From Ruegeria sp. PrR005 (GTDB lineage: Bacteria; Pseudomonadota; Alphaproteobacteria; Rhodobacterales; Rhodobacteraceae), in NCBI RefSeq assembly GCF_010500245.1, contig NZ_JAAGOX010000055.1, positions 1 to 64,000 on the forward strand: a stretch of DNA of 64,000 nucleotides, written 5' to 3'. A model generated the notes under the pieces. It was not told the origin of the DNA. It was given only the letters and a program-made list of their open reading frames with translations, and searched no databases. The translations under genes were made by a program, and so were the position numbers. Of this stretch, positions 8,593-19,678 are shown one piece after another; the stretch's first letter is position 1, and every line of letters begins with the position of its first letter.

Positions 8593-8630
8593 CGAGACCT
8601 GAATTCAGGCAAGTTTTGCGTCAGGTCTCG
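8593..8630. repeat. Inverted repeat across the phrB stop codon
   Basis: CGAGACCTGA (8593-8602) and TCAGGTCTCG (8621-8630) are perfect 10-base arms, and CCTGAATTCAGG (8598-8609) is a nested palindrome. The structure spans the phrB stop (8605) and lies about 40 bases upstream of the cfa start. There is no U tract, so it is more likely an mRNA-stabilising or processing hairpin than a terminator. Confidence 0.6.
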
Positions 8631-10053
8631 GCGGAAACGCTGTGGAATAGGCAGCAAGCGCCCGTTTTCTGCCCAAGTCGAGCGAAATGCCGGGCGATGG
8701 GTACTCCTCGCCCGGGTTCAAACCCCAACTGCGGGGAACCGCATCGAAGAATTCCAATGCCGTGTGCGTTGGGTGTTCCTGTTGCTGGGCGATCCAACGA
8801 TCAATATATGCGCGGTCTGGATCGAATTTGCCGGCCTGGGTTTCAGGGTTGAACACCCGGAAGTAAGGGGCGGCATCCGGCCCTGAACCGGCAACCCATT
8901 GCCAGCCCATGGCGTTTGCGGCCGGATCCCAGTCGGTCAGGCAGTCCGCGAACCAGTCCATGCCAAGTTTCCAATGCACCATCAGGTGCTTCGTCAGATA
9001 GCTTGCGGAAATCATACGGGCCCTGTTGTGCATTCGTCCGGTCACATACATCTCGCGCATTGCGGCATCGACCATTGGGACCCCGGTTTGTCCCCGGCAC
9101 CAGCGTACGAAGTCCGGATTGGTTTCGTCTGCCGACCAGGGAAAATCATCCCATTCCACCCGCCAGTTCCGATCCAGAATATGGGGGCTGTTGAACATCA
9201 GGTGATAGGCAAATTCACGCCAAACCAGCTCCTTGAGGAAATGCTCCGCTCCCGCAGAACCCGCGCGAACCGCCTCCTGCGCCCGATGCCACGCGATCCG
9301 AGGGCTAAGCTCGCCAAGGCTGAAATGCTCGGACAAGTCCGATGTGGCATCCAAGGCTGGAAAATCCCTATTTTTCTTATAGTTGTTGATGCGGTCAGAG
9401 ATGAACAGATCCAGTTTTGCGAGGGCCGCGGCTTCGCCAGGTGACTGGTATCTTGTCACAATCGGGACCGCACGGTTCATTTGCGCGTCCATGTGCCATG
9501 AACTCAGTGCATCGGAATTCGGCCAGTGGGGCGGTTTTGCCAAACGCGAAGGGGCCGGCAGGGCCGGACCGACATCCTGCTGGCAGACAGCCCGCCAGAA
9601 CGGCGAATAAACCTTGTAGTATCCCCCGGCGCCGGTCTTTACATTCCACGGCTCGAACAACAGATGCCCCGCAAACGAGCGGGCATCGACATCATTGTCC
9701 TTGAACCACGACTTCACACCTGCATCCCGCGCGACAGACACAGGGTCATACCCCCGCGACCACCAGACAGCACCGGCGCCGGTTTCTTCGACCAGCGACT
9801 GAAGCGCCTGCAACGCGCATCCGCGACGAAGGATCAACGCGCTTCCCAGCCTCTCCAGCTCGGCAGCAAAAGTTGCGAGCCCCAGGCCAAGTCGAAACTT
9901 GGGCGCGGCACCAAGCCGTTCAACCCCTTCGTCATGAAGGAATACGGGGACCACCGGGCGTCCGGTCGCGCAAGCCGCGTGAAAGCCGGGATTGTCTGTG
10001 ATCCTCAGATCACGGCGAAACCAGAAGATAATTGGACTGTCTGAATTGGTCAT
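8605..10053 (-). CDS. phrB: Deoxyribodipyrimidine photolyase (class I CPD photolyase)
   Basis: Light-driven repair of UV-induced pyrimidine dimers using FADH-. The N-terminal antenna domain starts IIFWFRRDLRITDNPG. The C-terminal FAD domain contains TGRMHNRARMISASYLTKHL and the DWDPAANAMGWQWVAGSGPDA signature of class I photolyases, with FRVFNP after it. At 482 residues it has the usual length. Its ATG follows GGGGCAGCCT. A sigma-E-type promoter candidate lies 21-50 bases upstream, and cfa follows on the same strand. Confidence 0.94.
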   Translation of the reverse strand: MTNSDSPIIFWFRRDLRITDNPGFHAACATGRPVVPVFLHDEGVERLGAAPKFRLGLGLATFAAELERLGSALILRRGCALQALQSLVEETGAGAVWWSRGYDPVSVARDAGVKSWFKDNDVDARSFAGHLLFEPWNVKTGAGGYYKVYSPFWRAVCQQDVGPALPAPSRLAKPPHWPNSDALSSWHMDAQMNRAVPIVTRYQSPGEAAALAKLDLFISDRINNYKKNRDFPALDATSDLSEHFSLGELSPRIAWHRAQEAVRAGSAGAEHFLKELVWREFAYHLMFNSPHILDRNWRVEWDDFPWSADETNPDFVRWCRGQTGVPMVDAAMREMYVTGRMHNRARMISASYLTKHLMVHWKLGMDWFADCLTDWDPAANAMGWQWVAGSGPDAAPYFRVFNPETQAGKFDPDRAYIDRWIAQQQEHPTHTALEFFDAVPRSWGLNPGEEYPSPGISLDLGRKRALAAYSTAFPPRPDAKLA

Positions 10054-10073: not shown

Positions 10074-10103
10074 AGGATACGGGGCTGGCCTGTTTCTGGA
10101 TCA
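10074..10103 (-). promoter_or_regulatory. Candidate RpoE/ChrR-type sigma-E promoter for phrB-cfa
   Basis: On the minus strand TGATCC (10103-10098) is followed after 18 bases by TATCCT (10079-10074). TGATC at -35 is the hallmark of the Rhodobacter singlet-oxygen sigma factor RpoE, whose known targets include photolyase and cfa genes. The predicted transcription start would be about 14 bases before the phrB ATG. The -10 is not the consensus TAAG type, so the call is moderate. Confidence 0.5.
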
Positions 10104-11324
10104 CAAAACCCGGTCAAGAGCCTGCAAAAGCTGGTCGATTTCAGATTTTGCGGTGTAGTGGGTAAAGCTCAGCCGGAGAACACCCTGGTTTGGATCGATA
10201 CCCATCCCCTGCAAGGCCCGCACGGCATAAAAATCGCCGCCACCCGCCATCACCCCGTATTTCGCCAACTCGGCCGCGACCGGCTCGGCCGGGCGGTTCA
10301 ACGCCAGCGCCACCGTCGGTGCGCGCAGTTCGGCCTTGTCCGGGCCGAGAAGACGGACCGAATTGCGATCGGCAACTGCATCAAGCAATGGTTGCAGCAG
10401 TTCCACCTCATAGTCCCGCATCAGGTCATGAACAAAAGCCGCCCTCTGTGTCGGGCCAGTGGCATCACACCCGTGGTGTGCCGCCAGCAGGTCAACATAA
10501 TCGGCCATGCCTGCGCTGGCGGCAACCTGGGCGTGATCGGGACCTGCTGGGGTAAAACGCTTGTACAGGACATCGCCATTAAAATAGTGCCCCTGGTTCG
10601 GCAACATCTGCCCCAGATTGCGCCGGATCACCATCACCCCCTGGTGCGGGCCATAGGTCTTGTAGGAGGAGAACAGGTAGATATCGGGTCCCAACTCTCC
10701 GACATTTGGAAAGCCGTGCGGCGCATAAGACACCCCGTCAACACAGACAAAGGCACCGGCGGCATGGGCGATGGCCGTGATTTCGGTTACCGGGTTGATC
10801 TCGCCCACCACATTTGAACAATGCGGAAAGCAAACCAGCCGCACGTTCTCGTCCAGCAGGTTTTCCAGATCCTCGGGGTTCAGATGCCCAGTGTCCGGGT
10901 CGATCTGCCATTCACGCACCTCGATCCCTGCCTCGGCCAGCCGCCGCCAGGGGCCGGAATTTGCCTCGTGATCCTGATTTGTCACGATGATCGCCTGGCC
11001 CGGCTGCATCCATTGCCGGAACGCCTGGGCCAGAACATAGGTATTCTGCGAGGTCGAGGGGCCGAAGCTCAGTTCGTCGGTCTCAACCCCCAGGATTGCC
11101 GCCATCCGCGCCCGCGCCTCTTCCATTTCGGCGCCAGCGAGCAGGCTCGCCTCGTACGGCGCATAAGGTTGTACCTTGCGCTGGGTGTAGAACCGGGTGA
11201 GCCGGTCGACCACCGGCTGACATGTATAAGACCCGCCTGCGTTTTCGAAGAACGCCTGGCCGTCCAGTGATGCTTCGGAGAATGCCGGGAACTGCTTGCG
11301 GACAAAGCCGATATCCAATGCCAT
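10101..11324 (-). CDS. Cysteine desulfurase-like class V aminotransferase
   Basis: PLP-dependent fold I enzyme (NifS/CsdA-like). The expected Schiff-base lysine lies in LFSSYKTYGPHQGVM, the PLP ring-stacking region in TNQDHEANSGPW, and the cofactor aspartate in VCVDGVSYAPHG. Length 407 with the ATG at 11324, chosen for GAGGG five bases upstream; an in-frame ATG at 11384 would add 20 residues. The substrate is not evident. No isc or suf genes are nearby, so a housekeeping iron-sulfur role is not supported. The stop codon overlaps the -35 element of the next gene, phrB. Confidence 0.78.
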   Translation of the reverse strand: MALDIGFVRKQFPAFSEASLDGQAFFENAGGSYTCQPVVDRLTRFYTQRKVQPYAPYEASLLAGAEMEEARARMAAILGVETDELSFGPSTSQNTYVLAQAFRQWMQPGQAIIVTNQDHEANSGPWRRLAEAGIEVREWQIDPDTGHLNPEDLENLLDENVRLVCFPHCSNVVGEINPVTEITAIAHAAGAFVCVDGVSYAPHGFPNVGELGPDIYLFSSYKTYGPHQGVMVIRRNLGQMLPNQGHYFNGDVLYKRFTPAGPDHAQVAASAGMADYVDLLAAHHGCDATGPTQRAAFVHDLMRDYEVELLQPLLDAVADRNSVRLLGPDKAELRAPTVALALNRPAEPVAAELAKYGVMAGGGDFYAVRALQGMGIDPNQGVLRLSFTHYTAKSEIDQLLQALDRVL

Positions 11325-11452
11325 CTTGACCCTCGTTTCTGATGGCAAATGGATGCCTGCTGACCGGGTCCGGGTCAAGGCCATGTGCTGATGTCAAAAA
11401 CTGTCATCACCACCGGCCATACAGGCACCATCGAAAACAATGAGGTAAACCG

Positions 11453-11884: not shown

Positions 11885-12877
11885 TCAGGCGTTGACGTCG
11901 ATAACGACACGGCCCTTGACCTGGCCCTTCAGGATATCGGCGCCGAGCTGCGGCAGGTCTGCCAGGGTGGCCGGTTGGATCATCGCCTCCAGCTTGTCCA
12001 TCGGCAGATCCGAGGCGATACGCTCCCACGCACGCAGCCTGTTGGCATAGGGTTGCATCACGCTGTCGATACCCAGAAGGTTGACACCGCGCAGCAGAAA
12101 GGGAACCACGGTCGCCGGCAGGCCGGCGCCGCCTGCAAGACCGACCGCAGCCACCGAGGCGCCGTACTTCATCTGGCCCAGAACCCGCGCGAGCATGGCG
12201 CCGCCCACGGCATCCACGCACCCTGCCCAGGTTTCCGACTCGAGCGGGCGCTTGACCGTTTCGTTCAACTCTTCGCGCGGCACGATGGTGGTCGCACCAA
12301 GAGATTTGAGGTAGTCGGCGGTTTCAGGGCGCCCGGTTACACCCGCCACTTCGTAGCCCAGGTTGGCCAGAATGGCGGTCGCCACGGAACCAACGCCGCC
12401 CGCGGCGCCAGTCACCAGAACCGGTCCATGTCCAGGTTTCAGGCCATGATCCTCCAGCGCCATGACGGCCAGCATCGCGGTAAAGCCTGCGGTCCCCACG
12501 GCCATCGCCTGCCGGGTGTCCAGCCCCTTTGGCAGCGGCACCAACCAGTCGGCCTTGACCCGTGCCTTCTGCGAGTATCCTCCCCAATGGGCCTCGCCCA
12601 CGCGCCAACCGGTCAGAACCACCTTGTCGCCGGGCTTGTACCGGGCATCCGACGAGGTTTCGACCGTTCCGGCAAGATCGATGCCAGGGATATGGGGATA
12701 TTTGCGCACCAGCCCACCGCCGGGACCAATGCACAGACCGTCCTTGTAGTTGACCGTCGAATACTCGACCGCGACCGTAACCTCGGCTTGTGGCAGATCA
12801 TCCAGCCCAAGCTGTTTGACAGCAGCCTGGGTCTTGCCGCTTTCTTCGTCCTTTTCGACCACCAGTGCGTTGAACAT
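11885..12877 (-). CDS. acuI: Acryloyl-CoA reductase (NADPH), AcuI
   Basis: Medium-chain reductase of the YhdH/AcuI class that reduces acryloyl-CoA to propionyl-CoA, which detoxifies a reactive DMSP breakdown product. The 330-residue protein begins MFNALVVEKDEESGK, has the NADPH site VLVTGAAGGVGSVA, and lacks zinc ligands. GGAGGAAAAG lies directly before the ATG. It is downstream of dmdA on the same strand (101-base gap), the order known from Ruegeria pomeroyi, where dmdA and acuI are co-regulated by DMSP and acrylate. Confidence 0.92.
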   Translation of the reverse strand: MFNALVVEKDEESGKTQAAVKQLGLDDLPQAEVTVAVEYSTVNYKDGLCIGPGGGLVRKYPHIPGIDLAGTVETSSDARYKPGDKVVLTGWRVGEAHWGGYSQKARVKADWLVPLPKGLDTRQAMAVGTAGFTAMLAVMALEDHGLKPGHGPVLVTGAAGGVGSVATAILANLGYEVAGVTGRPETADYLKSLGATTIVPREELNETVKRPLESETWAGCVDAVGGAMLARVLGQMKYGASVAAVGLAGGAGLPATVVPFLLRGVNLLGIDSVMQPYANRLRAWERIASDLPMDKLEAMIQPATLADLPQLGADILKGQVKGRVVIDVNA

Positions 12878-12978: not shown

Positions 12979-14082
12979 TCAAGCCCAAAACTTTTCACGA
13001 ACCGTTGCCGGGCGCATGCCGTCCGGCGTTTCCACTTCCAGCCGAGTTCCTTCGGCCCAATGGCTAAGCCGAACCATACCAATGGCGACGTTCGTCTGAA
13101 AGTCGGGCGACCACGCGGCCGAGGTCACCTGACCCACCCGCTGGCCATCGGCGTAGCACGGCCAAACCCTGTCACACCCCGGCACTCGATCACCGCTGAT
13201 GTCAATTGCGCGGATCTGCTGAACCGGGCCTTCCTTGGCGACGCGCAACAGCGCATCCCGGCCGATACAGCCAATTGCGGTATGCGTGTTACAAAAGCGG
13301 CCCAGCCCGCATTCATGCGGGGTATTGTCGTCGGTCATGTCGTTGCCATAGGACAACAGACCACCCTCGATTCTCTCGATCAGGTTGGGACAGCCCGCGC
13401 GCACGTCCAGATCCTCGCCCGCCGCCTTCAAGGCGTTCCATAGCGGCATGCCGATGTCGCCACCTTCGACATAGATCTCGAAACCACCCTGCTTGGAATA
13501 ACCCGACCGCGCAATGGCCAGATCACGCCCCTCGAAGGTGAACATGCCAAACCGGAAGAAGCGGACATCGCGCACCCGATCCCCGAAAACGCGGGCCATC
13601 AGGTCATCGGACTTTGGCCCTTGCACGGCCAGGGGCGAAACATCCGGTTCGTCCACGAGCACGTCCAGCCGGTAGCCGTTGGCAATGCCCTTGACCCAAA
13701 GCAGCAGGTCGCTGTCCGCAATCGAGATCCACCAGCGGTCCTCGGCCAGCTTGACGGCAACCGGATCGTTCAACATGCCGCCGGTTTCATCGACAATCGG
13801 CACGTAATAGCACTGCCCCGGTAGCATGCCGCGCAAGTCGCGCGGGGTCAGCATCTGCATCAGTCGCCCGGCATCAGGTCCACGCAACTCGACCTGCCGC
13901 TCGCAAGCCACGTCCCAGACCTGCACCGCTTTCTTCAGGTGGTGATAATCCGCCTCGACGCTTTCAAACACCGTCGGCAGCAGCATTCGGTTGTAAACAG
14001 TGTAGCCTTTGACCCCGGCGGCTTCGACACCGTCGGAAAAGGGAGTGCGCCTGACCCGGCGCGAGGGAGAGATCATCGCCAT
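12979..14082 (-). CDS. dmdA: Dimethylsulfoniopropionate demethylase DmdA
   Basis: Tetrahydrofolate-dependent enzyme that converts DMSP to methylmercaptopropionate, the committing step of the demethylation route. It belongs to the glycine-cleavage T-protein fold (GcvT-like): the front domain contains YTVYNRMLLPTVFESVEADY and WDVACERQVELRGPDA; the folate domain includes SGYSKQGGFEIYV and NLIERIEGGLLSYGNDM. Length 367 and the neighbour acuI match the roseobacter enzyme rather than GcvT, since no gcvH or gcvP is present. The start ATG follows GGAGGAC. A palindromic candidate operator lies 37-57 bases upstream. Confidence 0.95.
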   Translation of the reverse strand: MAMISPSRRVRRTPFSDGVEAAGVKGYTVYNRMLLPTVFESVEADYHHLKKAVQVWDVACERQVELRGPDAGRLMQMLTPRDLRGMLPGQCYYVPIVDETGGMLNDPVAVKLAEDRWWISIADSDLLLWVKGIANGYRLDVLVDEPDVSPLAVQGPKSDDLMARVFGDRVRDVRFFRFGMFTFEGRDLAIARSGYSKQGGFEIYVEGGDIGMPLWNALKAAGEDLDVRAGCPNLIERIEGGLLSYGNDMTDDNTPHECGLGRFCNTHTAIGCIGRDALLRVAKEGPVQQIRAIDISGDRVPGCDRVWPCYADGQRVGQVTSAAWSPDFQTNVAIGMVRLSHWAEGTRLEVETPDGMRPATVREKFWA

Positions 14083-14245: not shown

Positions 14246-14878
14246 TCAGCGCGGGCCGTGCCAATCGATCTGGCAGATTTCGGCGGAGCGCCCGTCGAAA
14301 TCCCAGACCCGGCCATAGGCGCGCAGCTTGCCCTTGGACGCTGTCGCCACCGTGATATCCGGCCCCATCCAGTACTGAGTGTTGGTCACGACCAGATCGG
14401 TTTCGGGATCCTTGCCAGCGACCGGAGCAACGACACCCTGGATCTTGCGGCCAACGGTGATGTGACGCGTCTTGCCCTCGGTCTCGTAGGTCACCGGTTG
14501 ACGCTCGTGGCCCAGGATTTCACCGACGAGGATCTGGAACAGGCCTGTTGTTCCCTTGGCCGCACCCGAGAAGATCGCGACCAGCGCGTCATATTGCGCA
14601 TCCGTGGAACGGTCGTCGATGAACAACCCAACCTTCCAGTTGCCACGGCTCATCATGCCCGGGATCTCGATCATCAGACCGATGTTCAACCCGCTGAGAT
14701 CAATGTCGCCATAAGCACCTTGGTCGATGCGTACACCACCCCAGGTCTGGCAGTGTCCCTCGGTTGGGGGATGCTTGCCCAGGCTGATCACGCAGGGACA
14801 GAACACCGTGCAGTTGCAGTTCAGGATCAACTCTCCCTTGACCGTCCAAGGCACCGTGCCCAACTCGTCCAAAGCCAT
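14246..14878 (-). CDS. DUF1326 cysteine-rich protein
   Basis: A 210-residue protein of the DUF1326 family, function unknown. A conserved N-terminal cysteine cluster, LNCNCTVFCPCVISLGKHPPTEGHC (C21, C23, C27, C29, C43), looks like a metal or redox site. The rest is predicted to be a soluble beta-rich domain, with no signal peptide. It follows the DUF2182 membrane protein by 18 bases; the pairing of the two families recurs in other bacteria, so they probably act together. GGGAGA precedes the ATG. The gene end lies 163 bases upstream of dmdA on the same strand, but dmdA seems to have its own promoter. Confidence 0.85.
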   Translation of the reverse strand: MALDELGTVPWTVKGELILNCNCTVFCPCVISLGKHPPTEGHCQTWGGVRIDQGAYGDIDLSGLNIGLMIEIPGMMSRGNWKVGLFIDDRSTDAQYDALVAIFSGAAKGTTGLFQILVGEILGHERQPVTYETEGKTRHITVGRKIQGVVAPVAGKDPETDLVVTNTQYWMGPDITVATASKGKLRAYGRVWDFDGRSAEICQIDWHGPR

Positions 14879-14896
14879 GTGATATCTCCCTTTTCC

Positions 14897-15667
14897 CTAT
14901 ATCGTCATCCAGATGGTCCAGCCTGCCCAGGCGAACAGGCAGTACCCCAAAGGCCGTGTTACATGGCGGCCAATATCGGGGAGTTTCTCCAGAACCATGA
15001 TCACCGTAGCCAAGCCCATAAAGGCCAGGTTCGTCACCCCGCCGACAAAGGCCAACAGCATCAGCGCCCAGCAACAGCCAAGGCACACTAGGCCCAGCCG
15101 GACGCCGTTGCGCAACGGTCCCTCGTCCCAATGCTGAATGAAAAAGGTCAGCGGTTGGCGGCATTTGCTGAGGCAGGCAGCCTTGATCGCCGAAAATTGA
15201 TAGGTGCCCGTGCCAATCAGCAGGCCCGCCGACAAGAGCACCGACCGGCTGTCGCCAAATCCACCGAGAAGACCGGCACTGAACAAGGCGAATTGCATCC
15301 CAGCCGCCAGTACAGAGAACCCCAGCCATACCAGCAGGTACCCCCCAAGCAGAGCGCCGAACCGCGTGCCCGGGGCGGTATGGGACAGATCCTCGTAAGT
15401 GGCCAGCGCAGGCAGGGCAGTGGGGGCCATCATCGCAGCGGACATCAGCGCCCACATGAAAACCATTCTTCCGAACCCGGCTACATCGGGTGTCAAGGTA
15501 CAGAGATCGCGCCAGAAATCCGCACCATAGACGGCATCCGCAACCCGCATTTCGGCCGGAATTGCCATCAGGAACAGAGCAGACCACGCGCCCAGGATAA
15601 GAACGAACAGGAGGATCCAGTGCCCCCCTGTCATCGACCTGATCCGTTCGGCAACGATGGCCTTCAT
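14897..15667 (-). CDS. DUF2182 integral membrane protein, possibly metal-binding
   Basis: A 256-residue inner-membrane protein with about six to seven helices. Family hallmarks are MWALMSAAMMAPT (70-83), KAACLSKCRQP (C165, C169) and CLGCCW (C195, C198, C199). The cysteines and methionine-rich helix suggest metal or thiol chemistry in the membrane, but no function is established. It is the first gene of a two-gene unit with the DUF1326 partner. The unit is divergent from a FadR-type regulator, and the shared gap contains repeated TGTCAGAC sites. Confidence 0.82.
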   Translation of the reverse strand: MKAIVAERIRSMTGGHWILLFVLILGAWSALFLMAIPAEMRVADAVYGADFWRDLCTLTPDVAGFGRMVFMWALMSAAMMAPTALPALATYEDLSHTAPGTRFGALLGGYLLVWLGFSVLAAGMQFALFSAGLLGGFGDSRSVLLSAGLLIGTGTYQFSAIKAACLSKCRQPLTFFIQHWDEGPLRNGVRLGLVCLGCCWALMLLAFVGGVTNLAFMGLATVIMVLEKLPDIGRHVTRPLGYCLFAWAGWTIWMTI

Positions 15668-15710
15668 TCCGCACTCCAGCTATCAGCTTAGGCGACTCAC
15701 GCGTTGACAC

Positions 15711-15739
15711 TTAAATGTCAGACTTTTAAATGTCAGACA
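15711..15739. promoter_or_regulatory. Tandem GntR/FadR-type operator sites
   Basis: TTAAATGTCAGAC occurs twice with a 15-base period (15711-15723 and 15726-15738). The second copy completes TGTCAGACA (15731-15739), a palindrome of the kind bound by FadR/GntR-family proteins. The sites sit between the divergent DUF2182 gene and the regulator gene, next to a TTGACA at 15704. Autoregulation and control of the DUF pair by the neighbouring regulator is the natural inference. Confidence 0.55.
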
Positions 15740-15793
15740 AATAAAATATTCCAACCCCGAAGATCCGCCAAACCAGGACACCAGGAACGTGCC

Positions 15794-16540
15794 ATGAAAA
15801 TCGACCCGAACAGTTCCGCCGATCTCTCGGCTCAGATTGCCCAGGCGATCAAGGATTCCATCGTCGAAGGCCGGTTGATCGTGGACGAGCGCCTGCCGTC
15901 TGAGGCGGAACTGGCTGACCAGTTCCAGGTCTCGCGCCCCACCGTGCGCGAAGCGCTGAAACGCTTGGCGGCGCAATCGCTGATCCGCACCCAGCGCGGT
16001 GCCTTTGGCGGAGCCTTTGTCAACCGGATCAGCTTCGAGGATGCCTATTCCCAACAGATCACCACCTCGACCCTGCTCTTGTCGATGAACGCGGTCAGTT
16101 TCGATACCGCTTGCGAGGCACGCTTTGCGCTGGAGCGCGCCTGTGCTCCGTTGTCGGCGCGGCGACGCACGCCGGATCACCTGGCCACCATGCGAGCCGA
16201 GATCGTGCGTCAGAGCCAGCCGGGGTTGAGCGACGAAACTTTTTGCGCCTCGGACGTGACATTTCACAGGGCATTGGTGGATGGCGCCGGCAACCCGGTG
16301 CTGTCCTACCAACTGGCCGGAGCCGTCGAGGCCATGCAGCCGCTGATGAACATGATCACCTTCACCGCCCGTTCGCGCGAGGTGATCGTGGGCCTGCATA
16401 CGCGCATTGCCGACGCAATCGAAGCCCGCGATGCCGCAGCCGCCGATACGGCGCTGGTCGAACTGACCACCTATACGATGACACTCAAGGACAGCGTGAT
16501 GGCCGCACGCGCTGCGGCACGTGAAACCCTGGGCGGCTGA
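15794..16540 (+). CDS. FadR-subfamily GntR transcriptional regulator
   Basis: A 248-residue DNA-binding regulator. The winged helix (about 8-78) contains VDERLPSEAELADQFQVSRPTVREALKRL, and the C-terminal all-helical FCD domain (about 95-235) includes the metal/effector residues typical of the FadR group (FHRALVDGAGNPV). I chose ATG 15794 because the GntR domain starts there and AGGA lies upstream; the open frame extends 30 codons further back through the operator repeats. It is divergent from the DUF2182/DUF1326 genes and probably regulates them. The ligand is unknown. Confidence 0.85.
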   Translation: MKIDPNSSADLSAQIAQAIKDSIVEGRLIVDERLPSEAELADQFQVSRPTVREALKRLAAQSLIRTQRGAFGGAFVNRISFEDAYSQQITTSTLLLSMNAVSFDTACEARFALERACAPLSARRRTPDHLATMRAEIVRQSQPGLSDETFCASDVTFHRALVDGAGNPVLSYQLAGAVEAMQPLMNMITFTARSREVIVGLHTRIADAIEARDAAAADTALVELTTYTMTLKDSVMAARAAARETLGG

Positions 16541-17618: not shown

Positions 17619-18434
17619 ATGGCTGCGCCAAATGAAATTACTGTTCCCCAATTGCTGCGCCTGATCGGCACGCCGGATTGCCCGGTTCTGGTGGATATCT
17701 CGATCGACGCGGATTTCGCAGACGATCCGTTCCTGATCCCCGGCGCCTTTCGCCATCCACACACCGACTATGACAGGCTCGTCGCGCGTCTGGCCGGGCG
17801 GCGTTGCATCGTCATCTGTCAACAGGGCCTCAAGCTCAGCCAAGGATTGGTGGCTCGCCTTCGAAACGACGGGCACCTGGCCGAATACCTTCAGGGCGGC
17901 AACCATGGCTGGCGCGGGAACCCGGACGCCCCCCGCATTCCCGCGACAGCGATCCCCGCATCGGCTCAGGGTGCCACGCTCTGGGTCACTCGCCACCGAC
18001 CCAAGATCGACCGAATTGCGTGCCCGTGGCTGATCCGGCGTTTCGTGGACCCCTCGGCAAGGTTTCTTTTCGTTTCACCCGACCAGGTCCAGGGCGTCGC
18101 CGAGCGGTACGGTGCGACACCTTTCGACGTGGAAAACGTCTTCTGGTCACATCGGGACGACAAATGCACCTTCGACACCATGCTTGATGAATTCGGATTG
18201 CGAACCGAGGCGCTTGACCGGCTGTCCGTGGTTGTACGCGCAGCCGACACCGACCGGCATCAGATCGCGCCACAGGCGGCGGGGTTGCTGGCGATTTCAG
18301 TCGGGTTATCGCGCCAGTACCGCGACGACCATGACCAGTTGGCCGCTGGCATAGTGCTCTATGACGCGCTCTACCGCTGGGCGCGCGATGGACAAAGTGA
18401 AGGCCACGACTGGCCTGCGGACCGTCGGCCATGA
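17619..18434 (+). CDS. Rhodanese-ChrB fusion, chromate resistance protein
   Basis: A 271-residue cytoplasmic protein. Residues about 1-105 form a rhodanese-like domain (LVDISIDADF, and active loop ICQQGLKLSQG, where the cysteine is followed by QQG). From about 115 onward is the ChrB C-terminal domain (WVTRHRPKIDRIACPWLIRRFVDP and DDKCTFDTMLDEFG). ChrB proteins regulate or assist chromate efflux. GAGGAG precedes the ATG, and the stop overlaps the chrA start (ATGA), so the two are translationally coupled. Whether this rhodanese moves sulfur or only binds an anion is not shown. Confidence 0.82.
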   Translation: MAAPNEITVPQLLRLIGTPDCPVLVDISIDADFADDPFLIPGAFRHPHTDYDRLVARLAGRRCIVICQQGLKLSQGLVARLRNDGHLAEYLQGGNHGWRGNPDAPRIPATAIPASAQGATLWVTRHRPKIDRIACPWLIRRFVDPSARFLFVSPDQVQGVAERYGATPFDVENVFWSHRDDKCTFDTMLDEFGLRTEALDRLSVVVRAADTDRHQIAPQAAGLLAISVGLSRQYRDDHDQLAAGIVLYDALYRWARDGQSEGHDWPADRRP

Positions 18435-19678
18435 CGCCGTCATGGTCGGAACTCGTCCGCGTTTTCGGACGGATCGGGCTGCTGTCCTTTGGCGGGCCAG
18501 CGGCGCAGATCGCCCTGATGCACAGGGAGCTGGTCGAAACCCGCCCCTGGCTGGATGAAAAGACCTTTCTGCGGGCGCTGTCGCTGTGCATGTTGCTGCC
18601 CGGACCAGAGGCCATGCAGCTGGCCACCTATGCGGGCTGGCGACTACGTGGGATACCCGGTGGCCTGATCTCGGGCGGGCTTTTCGTTTTGCCCGGTGCT
18701 CTGGTGATCTCGGCGCTCGTGGCGCTTTACGTAACCTTTGGCGACCTGCCGCTGATTCAATCGGCGTTTCTTGGAATCAAAGCCGCGGTGATCGCCATCG
18801 TCGTACAGGCATTGAGCAAACTCAGCTCCAAGACACTGACAAGCCGTTCGGCCTGGGTGATCGCCGGTCTCTCCTTTGTCGCGATTTTTGCGTTTGCCAT
18901 GCCGTTCCCCCTAATTGTCGGCGCTGCGGGCATCTGGGGGTATATTAGCGCCAAAACGACCGATGCCCCCCATCCTTCATCCGAGTGGCAGTACCCAGAA
19001 ACGGGAACGCTTGCCACCTGGCTGGTGCTCTGGCTTGCCCCCATTCTCTGGCTCCATTTCTTTGGGCCGACCTTGTTGGCGGACCTCGGCTGGTTCTTCG
19101 TCATTCTTGCTGTGGTGACCTTCGGAGGCGCCTACGCGGTGCTGGCCTATATGACGCAAACGGTCGTCGACCAGCATCAATGGATCACGACCACACAGAT
19201 GATTGACGCCCTGGGGCTGGCCGAGACGACACCGGGGCCCTTGATATTGGTAACGCAGTTCGTTGCAATGCTTGCCGGCTACATGGCCGATGGCCCAGCA
19301 ATGGCCCTGGCTGCTGGCGCGGTTGCTCTCTGGGCAACATTTGTGCCCTGTTTTCTTTGGATCTTTTCGACCGCACCCATCCTGGACCAGATCGCCGGTC
19401 GACCCAGACCCGCGGCCGCGCTCAATGCAATCACATCCGCCGTTGTCGGAGTGATCCTGAACCTCTCCTTATGGTTCGGAATGCATGTCATCTTTGGAAA
19501 GGTCGCATTTTCAAGCGTCGGACCAGTGGCTTTCTGGTCTCCCGTCTGGGTCAGTTTCGACCCCTTGGCGGCATCACTGTCGGTGCTCGCCGCAGTGTCG
19601 ATGATCGTCTTGAAGCGGGGAATCGGTGAGACCTTGGTGCTGATGACCGCAGCAGGCATGGCCAGCTATTTCATCTGA
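18431..19678 (+). CDS. chrA: Chromate efflux transporter ChrA
   Basis: Inner-membrane CHR-family carrier of 415 residues that exports chromate. It has the two homologous halves of long-chain ChrA proteins. The first starts FGRIGLLSFGGPAAQIALMH with CMLLPGPEAMQLATYAGWR; the second has VTFGGAYAVLAYM and DALGLAETTPGPLILVTQFVA. About ten to twelve helices are predicted. It overlaps the upstream rhodanese-ChrB gene by four bases, forming a two-gene operon. Confidence 0.93.
   Translation: MTPSWSELVRVFGRIGLLSFGGPAAQIALMHRELVETRPWLDEKTFLRALSLCMLLPGPEAMQLATYAGWRLRGIPGGLISGGLFVLPGALVISALVALYVTFGDLPLIQSAFLGIKAAVIAIVVQALSKLSSKTLTSRSAWVIAGLSFVAIFAFAMPFPLIVGAAGIWGYISAKTTDAPHPSSEWQYPETGTLATWLVLWLAPILWLHFFGPTLLADLGWFFVILAVVTFGGAYAVLAYMTQTVVDQHQWITTTQMIDALGLAETTPGPLILVTQFVAMLAGYMADGPAMALAAGAVALWATFVPCFLWIFSTAPILDQIAGRPRPAAALNAITSAVVGVILNLSLWFGMHVIFGKVAFSSVGPVAFWSPVWVSFDPLAASLSVLAAVSMIVLKRGIGETLVLMTAAGMASYFI

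Follow-up and report, generated by a model that had tools for sequence, protein, structure and literature searches.

The locus described here lies in a window of 64,000 nucleotides (the whole stretch of DNA that was analysed) from Ruegeria sp. PrR005. On the minus strand it holds a gene for a PpoB2-family membrane protein, a gene for a soluble DUF1326 protein that follows after 18 bases, and then dmdA and acuI, with a divergent GntR/FCD gene on the other side of the pair (Table 1). The cysteine-desulfurase-like gene and the photolyase gene continue the same strand past a terminator-like site. The DmdA equivalog thus adjoins AcuI on one strand (NF009133, TIGR02823); against the narrower AcuI model NF051456 the latter scored 431.5 bits, slightly below the cut-off of 440.

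Table 1. Positions of the PpoB2-DUF1326 pair and of the neighbouring features in the window.
Feature	Position	Strand	Basis
PpoB2-family membrane protein (DUF2182, COG5486), 256 aa	14897..15667	-	Pfam PF09948, E 2.4e-57
DUF1326 soluble partner, 210 aa	14246..14878	-	Pfam PF07040, E 3.7e-50
GntR/FCD regulator, divergent from the pair	15794..16540	+	Pfam GntR 3e-19, FCD 8.7e-21
Operator-like repeats GACACTTAAATGTCA / GACTTTTAAATGTCA, intergenic between pair and regulator	15706..15744	.	TGTCNGACA in 66 of 77 homologous intergenic regions
Palindrome TGTCAGACA, within the operator-like repeats	15731-15739		
dmdA, DMSP demethylase	12979..14082	-	NCBIfam NF009133, 697 bits vs cut-off 410
acuI, acrylyl-CoA reductase family	11885..12877	-	TIGR02823, 455 bits vs cut-off 297
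Cysteine-desulfurase-like PLP enzyme; recurrent neighbour	10101..11384	-	TIGR01976, below cut-off
Photolyase; recurrent neighbour, looser block member	8605..10053	-	Pfam

A terminator scan revealed a strong terminator-like site on the minus strand directly 3' of acuI (11868-11844) and none between PpoB2 and DUF1326 or between DUF1326 and dmdA. In total, seven terminator-like sites were found with 4.3 expected. Further minus-strand sites lie at the start of dmdA (14062-14047) and within the first part of PpoB2, where three overlap (15632-15606); we treat them as neutral evidence. The promoter scan of the locus found no sigma-70-like site. It should be mentioned that a gene with a ChrB C-terminal domain, followed by a chromate transporter gene, is located nearby at 17619-19678 and likely forms a chromate resistance pair.

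The earlier note on this DNA had pointed to the two genes as a cysteine-rich pair, and its description of them was correct. The membrane protein carries the motifs CLGCC (residues 195-199) and KAACLSKCRQP (162-172), the soluble partner contains a C21-x-C23-x3-C27-x-C29 cluster, and the 18-base coupling follows from the coordinates. The statement that neither protein has an assigned function does not hold for the membrane protein. It matched PF09948 with 194.3 bits (gathering cut-off 28.7) over positions 1-187 of the 188 in the profile, and DUF2182 is the former name of this family, which is now called PpoB2, 'Copper chaperone', in Pfam. According to a review, the namesake from Marinomonas mediterranea is involved in the specific transfer of copper to the tyrosinase PpoB1, which is encoded alongside, and was the first COG5486 protein to which a physiological role was assigned (excerpts of PMC2855505). 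The soluble protein matched PF07040 with 170.9 bits (gathering cut-off 25), and among open-licence PMC papers, searched by main text, we found none on DUF1326 or DUF2182 by name.

The two families occur together. Among 149 genomes of the window's family, PpoB2 was present in 82 and DUF1326 in 79, and all 79 genomes with DUF1326 also had PpoB2. Phylum-wide, comparison of the lists by eye gave PpoB2 in 28 of 28 DUF1326 genomes (249 genomes searched). Adjacent PpoB2/DUF1326 pairs were also found in Haloferax, Leptolyngbya, Streptomyces, Nocardioides and Rhodococcus. One genome (G036) has several DUF1326-PpoB2 copies: in L107 two pairs converge, and L097 is a DUF1326-PpoB2-DUF1326 triplet.

The 149 family genomes contained 91 adjacent pairs, 72 with PpoB2 first, as in the window (window order), and 19 with DUF1326 first (reverse order). 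In a DUF1326 tree (FastTree, with many weak forks) 99 of 100 window-order sequences were located on one side of a single branch with local support 99; this side also holds three sequences of unassigned gene order. In one contig titled Nocardioides marinus (L131) the block is of the roseobacter type, with a DUF1326 that clusters with Phaeobacter; the record may be mislabelled, contaminated or the result of a recent transfer.

The two orders differ sharply in what follows them. Within 4-5 kb and on the strand of the pair, at least one of dmdA and acuI followed 64 of the 72 window-order pairs and none of the 19 reverse-order pairs (Fisher p 1.2e-13, uncorrected for the kinship of the genomes). 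Taken singly, acuI followed 58 of the 72 window-order pairs (76 matches entered, those from genomes without the pair left out) and dmdA followed 48 (first 60 matches, 56% identity or more, weaker ones left out). PpoB2 and DUF1326 thus recur as members of the DMSP/acrylate locus in the window's family and beyond, and these counts do not support their reading as a free-standing new system. Outside the family, a dmdA-like gene (48-55% identity) follows PpoB2-DUF1326 in three Acidimicrobiia-type contigs (L183, L185, L192) and in a Nitriliruptorales bin (L174).

To describe the cluster, we labelled the neighbours by tblastn score in 80 loci from named genomes; these are the best 80 of 573 relatives and therefore lean towards the window type, and some of them are clipped by contig ends. 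The common layout was GntR / PpoB2-DUF1326-(DinB)-dmdA-acuI-(desulfurase-like)-(photolyase), with variable members in brackets, so that in the window and in most sampled loci PpoB2-DUF1326, often with DinB, stands between the regulator and dmdA or acuI. Among these best 80 of 573, DUF1326 was present in 78 loci, acuI in 64, the GntR gene in 61, dmdA in 60, a DinB-family gene in 38, the desulfurase-like gene in 29 and the photolyase gene in 26; where both flanks were whole, dmdA or acuI was found in 55 of 59. Within these labels, 'mtoX' denotes the SBP56 family, and 'dmdB' an acyl-CoA ligase like that of Marinovum, which does not reach the cut-off for 3-(methylthio)propionyl-CoA ligase.

Several neighbours deserve separate mention. 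The DinB-family gene (PF05163, E 5.6e-25 for the copy in L087) is located between DUF1326 and dmdA/acuI in most loci that have it (e.g., L127 of Roseovarius mucosus, L128 of Shimia sagamensis and L190) and is absent from the DUF1326-dmdA interval of the window. The cysteine-desulfurase-like gene mostly comes after acuI and may be connected with the handling of sulfur. In two loci (L104 and L165) a crotonyl-CoA carboxylase/reductase (TIGR01751, over cut-off) replaces acuI after the pair.

The earlier note had also given the pair a divergent FadR-type regulator of its own. A GntR/FCD gene is indeed present and divergent, but it cannot be called the pair's own: its orthologues directly face dmdA, DinB or acuI in genomes without the pair at that place. 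The palindrome TGTCNGACA, which occurs as a single copy in the whole 64 kb window, points the same way. It was present in 66 of 77 homologous regulator intergenic regions, where dinucleotide shuffling (20 rounds for each region) gave an expectation of 0.25, a count to be read with the facts that the palindrome was first spotted in the window and then counted, that the window is one of the 77 regions and that the genomes are related and hence non-independent. Removal of one duplicate left 65 of 76 distinct regions. The palindrome was also found in five of the eight regions in which the regulator faces dmdA, DinB or acuI, not PpoB2. Since both orthologues and palindrome face these genes too, the regulator is better described as that of the DMSP/acrylate operon, and its conserved place marks the GntR/FCD gene as the predicted regulator of this operon. 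A search of the main text of open-licence PMC papers found none on DmdR together with dmdA.

Some genomes (L206, L208) have the regulator with dmdA-acuI and no pair there; the pair is therefore dispensable. Such operons would be expected if the pair were carried in the operon by descent, with no role in DMSP or acrylate use, as would the recurrence in the block of genes without a clear tie to DMSP, such as that for photolyase. We consider such hitchhiking very improbable, given that the link recurs in the Actinomycetota-type contigs (L174, L183, L185 and L192) and that in most loci the pair keeps its place between the regulator and dmdA/acuI.

To see which residues are retained, we compared 100 window-order homologues with 19 reverse-order ones (18 of the family's 19 and the copy in L200). 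The cysteine layout noticed earlier proved to be more than chance: in both orders C21, C23, C27, C29 and C43 of DUF1326 are 100% conserved, as are C165, C169, C195, C198 and C199 of PpoB2 at 99-100%. Besides C43, the conserved membrane methionines had been overlooked; M71, M75, M79, M80, M203 and M212 of PpoB2 are conserved at 91-100%. In a wider set of 72-73 homologues the conserved cysteines of the pair were kept at 96-100%. The window-order class has additional conserved positions (95-99%), namely H36, M76, M171 and C202 in DUF1326 and M217 and M224 in PpoB2, and the reverse-order class tends to histidines instead, e.g., at PpoB2 position 191. With these Cys/Met positions kept at 91-100% in either gene order, the metal-like site extends beyond the copies that are linked to DMSP genes.

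Predicted structures were obtained for both proteins (mean pLDDT 93 for each). The PpoB2 model is mostly helical, with the M71-M80 region in helix 62-83, C195, C198 and C199 in helix 184-204, and C165 and C169 on the preceding loop. Positive charge is highest in the stretch 158-183 (mean 3.3 K+R across 100 proteins), which includes C165 and C169 and is, by the positive-inside rule, probably cytosolic. A sequence search of the PDB with PpoB2 gave zero matches, and no notable one came from comparison of folds (Foldseek E 0.12 at best; VIA Z below 5); a missing PDB match does not make PpoB2 a new fold.

The DUF1326 model may share the acetoacetate decarboxylase fold (3bgt: VIA Z 10.8, 159 residues, rmsd 3.5, 11% identity), and the top 11 rows of the fold search were acetoacetate decarboxylases and their relatives (Z 10.1-10.8, identity 5-12%), followed by a row at 8.6. 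DUF1326 differs from these enzymes in its N-terminal Cys cluster and in having no lysine among its invariant or near-invariant columns. By sequence, only short or weak PDB matches were obtained, the best of which (23 residues to Ika8, E 1.6e-4) we take as chance. Inspection by eye of its N-terminus revealed no clear signal peptide.

The family name, the copper role of the namesake and the conserved Cys/Met positions favour the metal half of the earlier suggestion of a metal or thiol system, and the PpoB2-family protein here is probably a Cu(I) transporter or chaperone. Zinc, iron, nickel or manganese might be acquired or stored instead. Cysteine-rich sites also suit Zn or Fe-S, iron/siderophore genes occur among some neighbours elsewhere, and DinB-family proteins are metal proteins. 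A system for one of these other metals nevertheless seems quite improbable to us, as conserved methionines together with CxGCC fit Cu(I) and as the one member of the family that has been studied is linked to the transfer of copper (excerpts of PMC2855505).

The same neighbours and residues can also be read with the metal as secondary. The cysteine clusters may bind or sense methanethiol, acrylate or acryloyl-CoA, with DinB and AcuI protecting thiols. The frequency of acuI and dmdA after window-order pairs (58 and 48 of 72), the DinB-family gene in 38 of the best 80 of 573 loci and the crotonyl-CoA carboxylase/reductase in the place of acuI in L104 and L165 would all suit such a defence. So would the Ruegeria pomeroyi dmdA-acuI operon, which in microarrays was induced about 14-fold by DMSP and about 12-fold by acrylate, and whose acuI protects from acrylate (excerpts of PMC3338564). 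It leaves the conserved membrane methionines unexplained, however, the same Cys/Met are kept in the 19 reverse-order copies, whose loci gave no match to dmdA or acuI, and copper transfer is what the sole studied member of the family is tied to (excerpts of PMC2855505). Thus, thiol or electrophile defence is in our view unlikely.

Tyrosinase, the client in Marinomonas, was rejected as client of the pair: PF00264 had no matches in the window genome and any match at all in only 4 of the 149 family genomes. DmdA, AcuI, the desulfurase-like enzyme and photolyase are not known to be copper enzymes.

Another candidate was MtoX, the SBP56-family enzyme that removes the methanethiol from DMSP demethylation and that requires copper (excerpts of PMC5739008), for which the pair could be a dedicated metallation helper. 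Marinovum plasmid pMaD9 and genome G043 carry SBP56-family genes within this cluster or adjoining it, and in G136 a distance of 668 bases separates a PpoB2 gene from one for SBP56; in L088 a lone PpoB2 gene and an SBP56-family gene have one ferredoxin-like gene between them. Of the 71 genomes that have a window-order pair, 37 contained SBP56, vs 10 of the 78 that do not (p 2e-7); these counts leave out three distant matches and two short fragments, so that the window genome is scored as lacking SBP56. Among genomes with dmdA, however, there was no association with the pair (30/50 vs 4/9, p 0.47). The only SBP56 match of the window genome is distant (142 bits, where most full-length family matches reach about 560-710 bits), the SBP56 proteins of Marinovum and G136 are below the NCBIfam MtoX cut-off, and none of the best 80 of 573 loci had an above-threshold SBP56 match within the flanking stretch examined. 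Besides, mtoX in many bacteria adjoins a SCO1/SenC gene of its own (excerpts of PMC5739008). We therefore rejected MtoX as the sole client and hold a dedicated MtoX helper to be improbable.

A lone PpoB2 gene was located about 4 kb from genes for a heavy-metal P-type ATPase and cueR. Around reverse-order pairs the neighbours fell into 170 Pfam families (138 of the 142 listed proteins scanned, four left out), and the 25 commonest of these included no copper family; most plasmid copies away from the DMSP cluster lack adjacent copper genes. An anti-phage role was rejected, since neither protein had a PADLOC match. Open-licence PMC papers that join dmdA and 'copper chaperone' in their main text gave passages on subjects other than the PpoB2-DUF1326 pair.

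Taking together the gene content and order, the conserved residues, the shared palindrome and the breadth across genomes observed here, we give about an even chance to the reading that PpoB2 and DUF1326 form a two-gene module for Cu(I) handling within the DMSP/acrylate catabolic operon. We infer copper as the metal. Cu(I) would cross the membrane, in whichever direction, through a Met/Cys path of PpoB2 (M71-80, C195/198/199 and C165/169), and a hand-over to or from the five-cysteine cluster of DUF1326 would follow, probably in the cytosol. In the presence of DMSP or acrylate the GntR/FCD regulator, by its presumed binding at TGTCNGACA, would induce the pair jointly with dmdA and acuI. The place of the pair suggests a common transcript with dmdA and acuI, so that the supply or protection of copper would accompany DMSP/acrylate use. 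The likely role of the Cu(I)-handling pair would be to supply copper to a putative client enzyme induced along with DMSP breakdown or, alternatively, to keep copper available during production of methanethiol, a Cu(I)-binding thiol. Against this reading count the lack of known copper enzymes in the cluster, of a tyrosinase and of a close SBP56 in the window genome, the operons that do without the pair, and the scarcity of copper genes around reverse-order and plasmid copies.

A further step may be taken, though we regard it as possible at most and rather doubtful: DMSP/acrylate catabolism in marine bacteria would include a copper-dependent step that has been overlooked, and PpoB2-DUF1326 would be its dedicated pair for Cu(I) acquisition and delivery, co-regulated with dmdA and acuI and common to roseobacters and Actinomycetota. 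In the marine sulfur cycle, DMSP breakdown by roseobacters is a large flux and determines whether methanethiol or dimethyl sulfide is formed. Were the hypothesis true, copper supply and DMSP use would be coupled, given the position of the pair upstream of dmdA/acuI in 64 of 72 cases. For DUF1326, the setting of the pair provides a partner, a genomic place and a hypothesis.

Marinomonas mediterranea PpoB2, compared at the family level, belongs to the same Pfam family, is likewise of transmembrane type and is encoded in an operon; its partner is a tyrosinase, whereas here it is DUF1326 in a DMSP/acrylate operon, in a genome without tyrosinase. The mtoX-SCO1/SenC-mauG cluster also ties a copper-chaperone gene to a DMSP-related step, but SCO1/SenC is another family and the presumed client MtoX is encoded next to it (excerpts of PMC5739008). 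The dmdA-acuI operon of R. pomeroyi has the same dmdA-acuI order as the window; it differs in that here PpoB2 and DUF1326, genes that the excerpts of PMC3338564 do not mention, precede dmdA/acuI.

A further counterpart is plasmid pMaD9 of Marinovum algicola DG 898 (CP010864), with the order GntR / PpoB2-DUF1326-acyl-CoA ligase-dmdA-acuI-SBP56; its ligase and SBP56 genes are missing from the block in the window. In the depositors' annotation both genes of the pair are labelled '(Transmembrane) protein involved in DMSP breakdown', a phrase that we found in none of the open-licence PMC papers searched. One plasmid deposit had already named both genes as DMSP-related; the new part is how broadly a copper-chaperone family is linked with DMSP catabolism.
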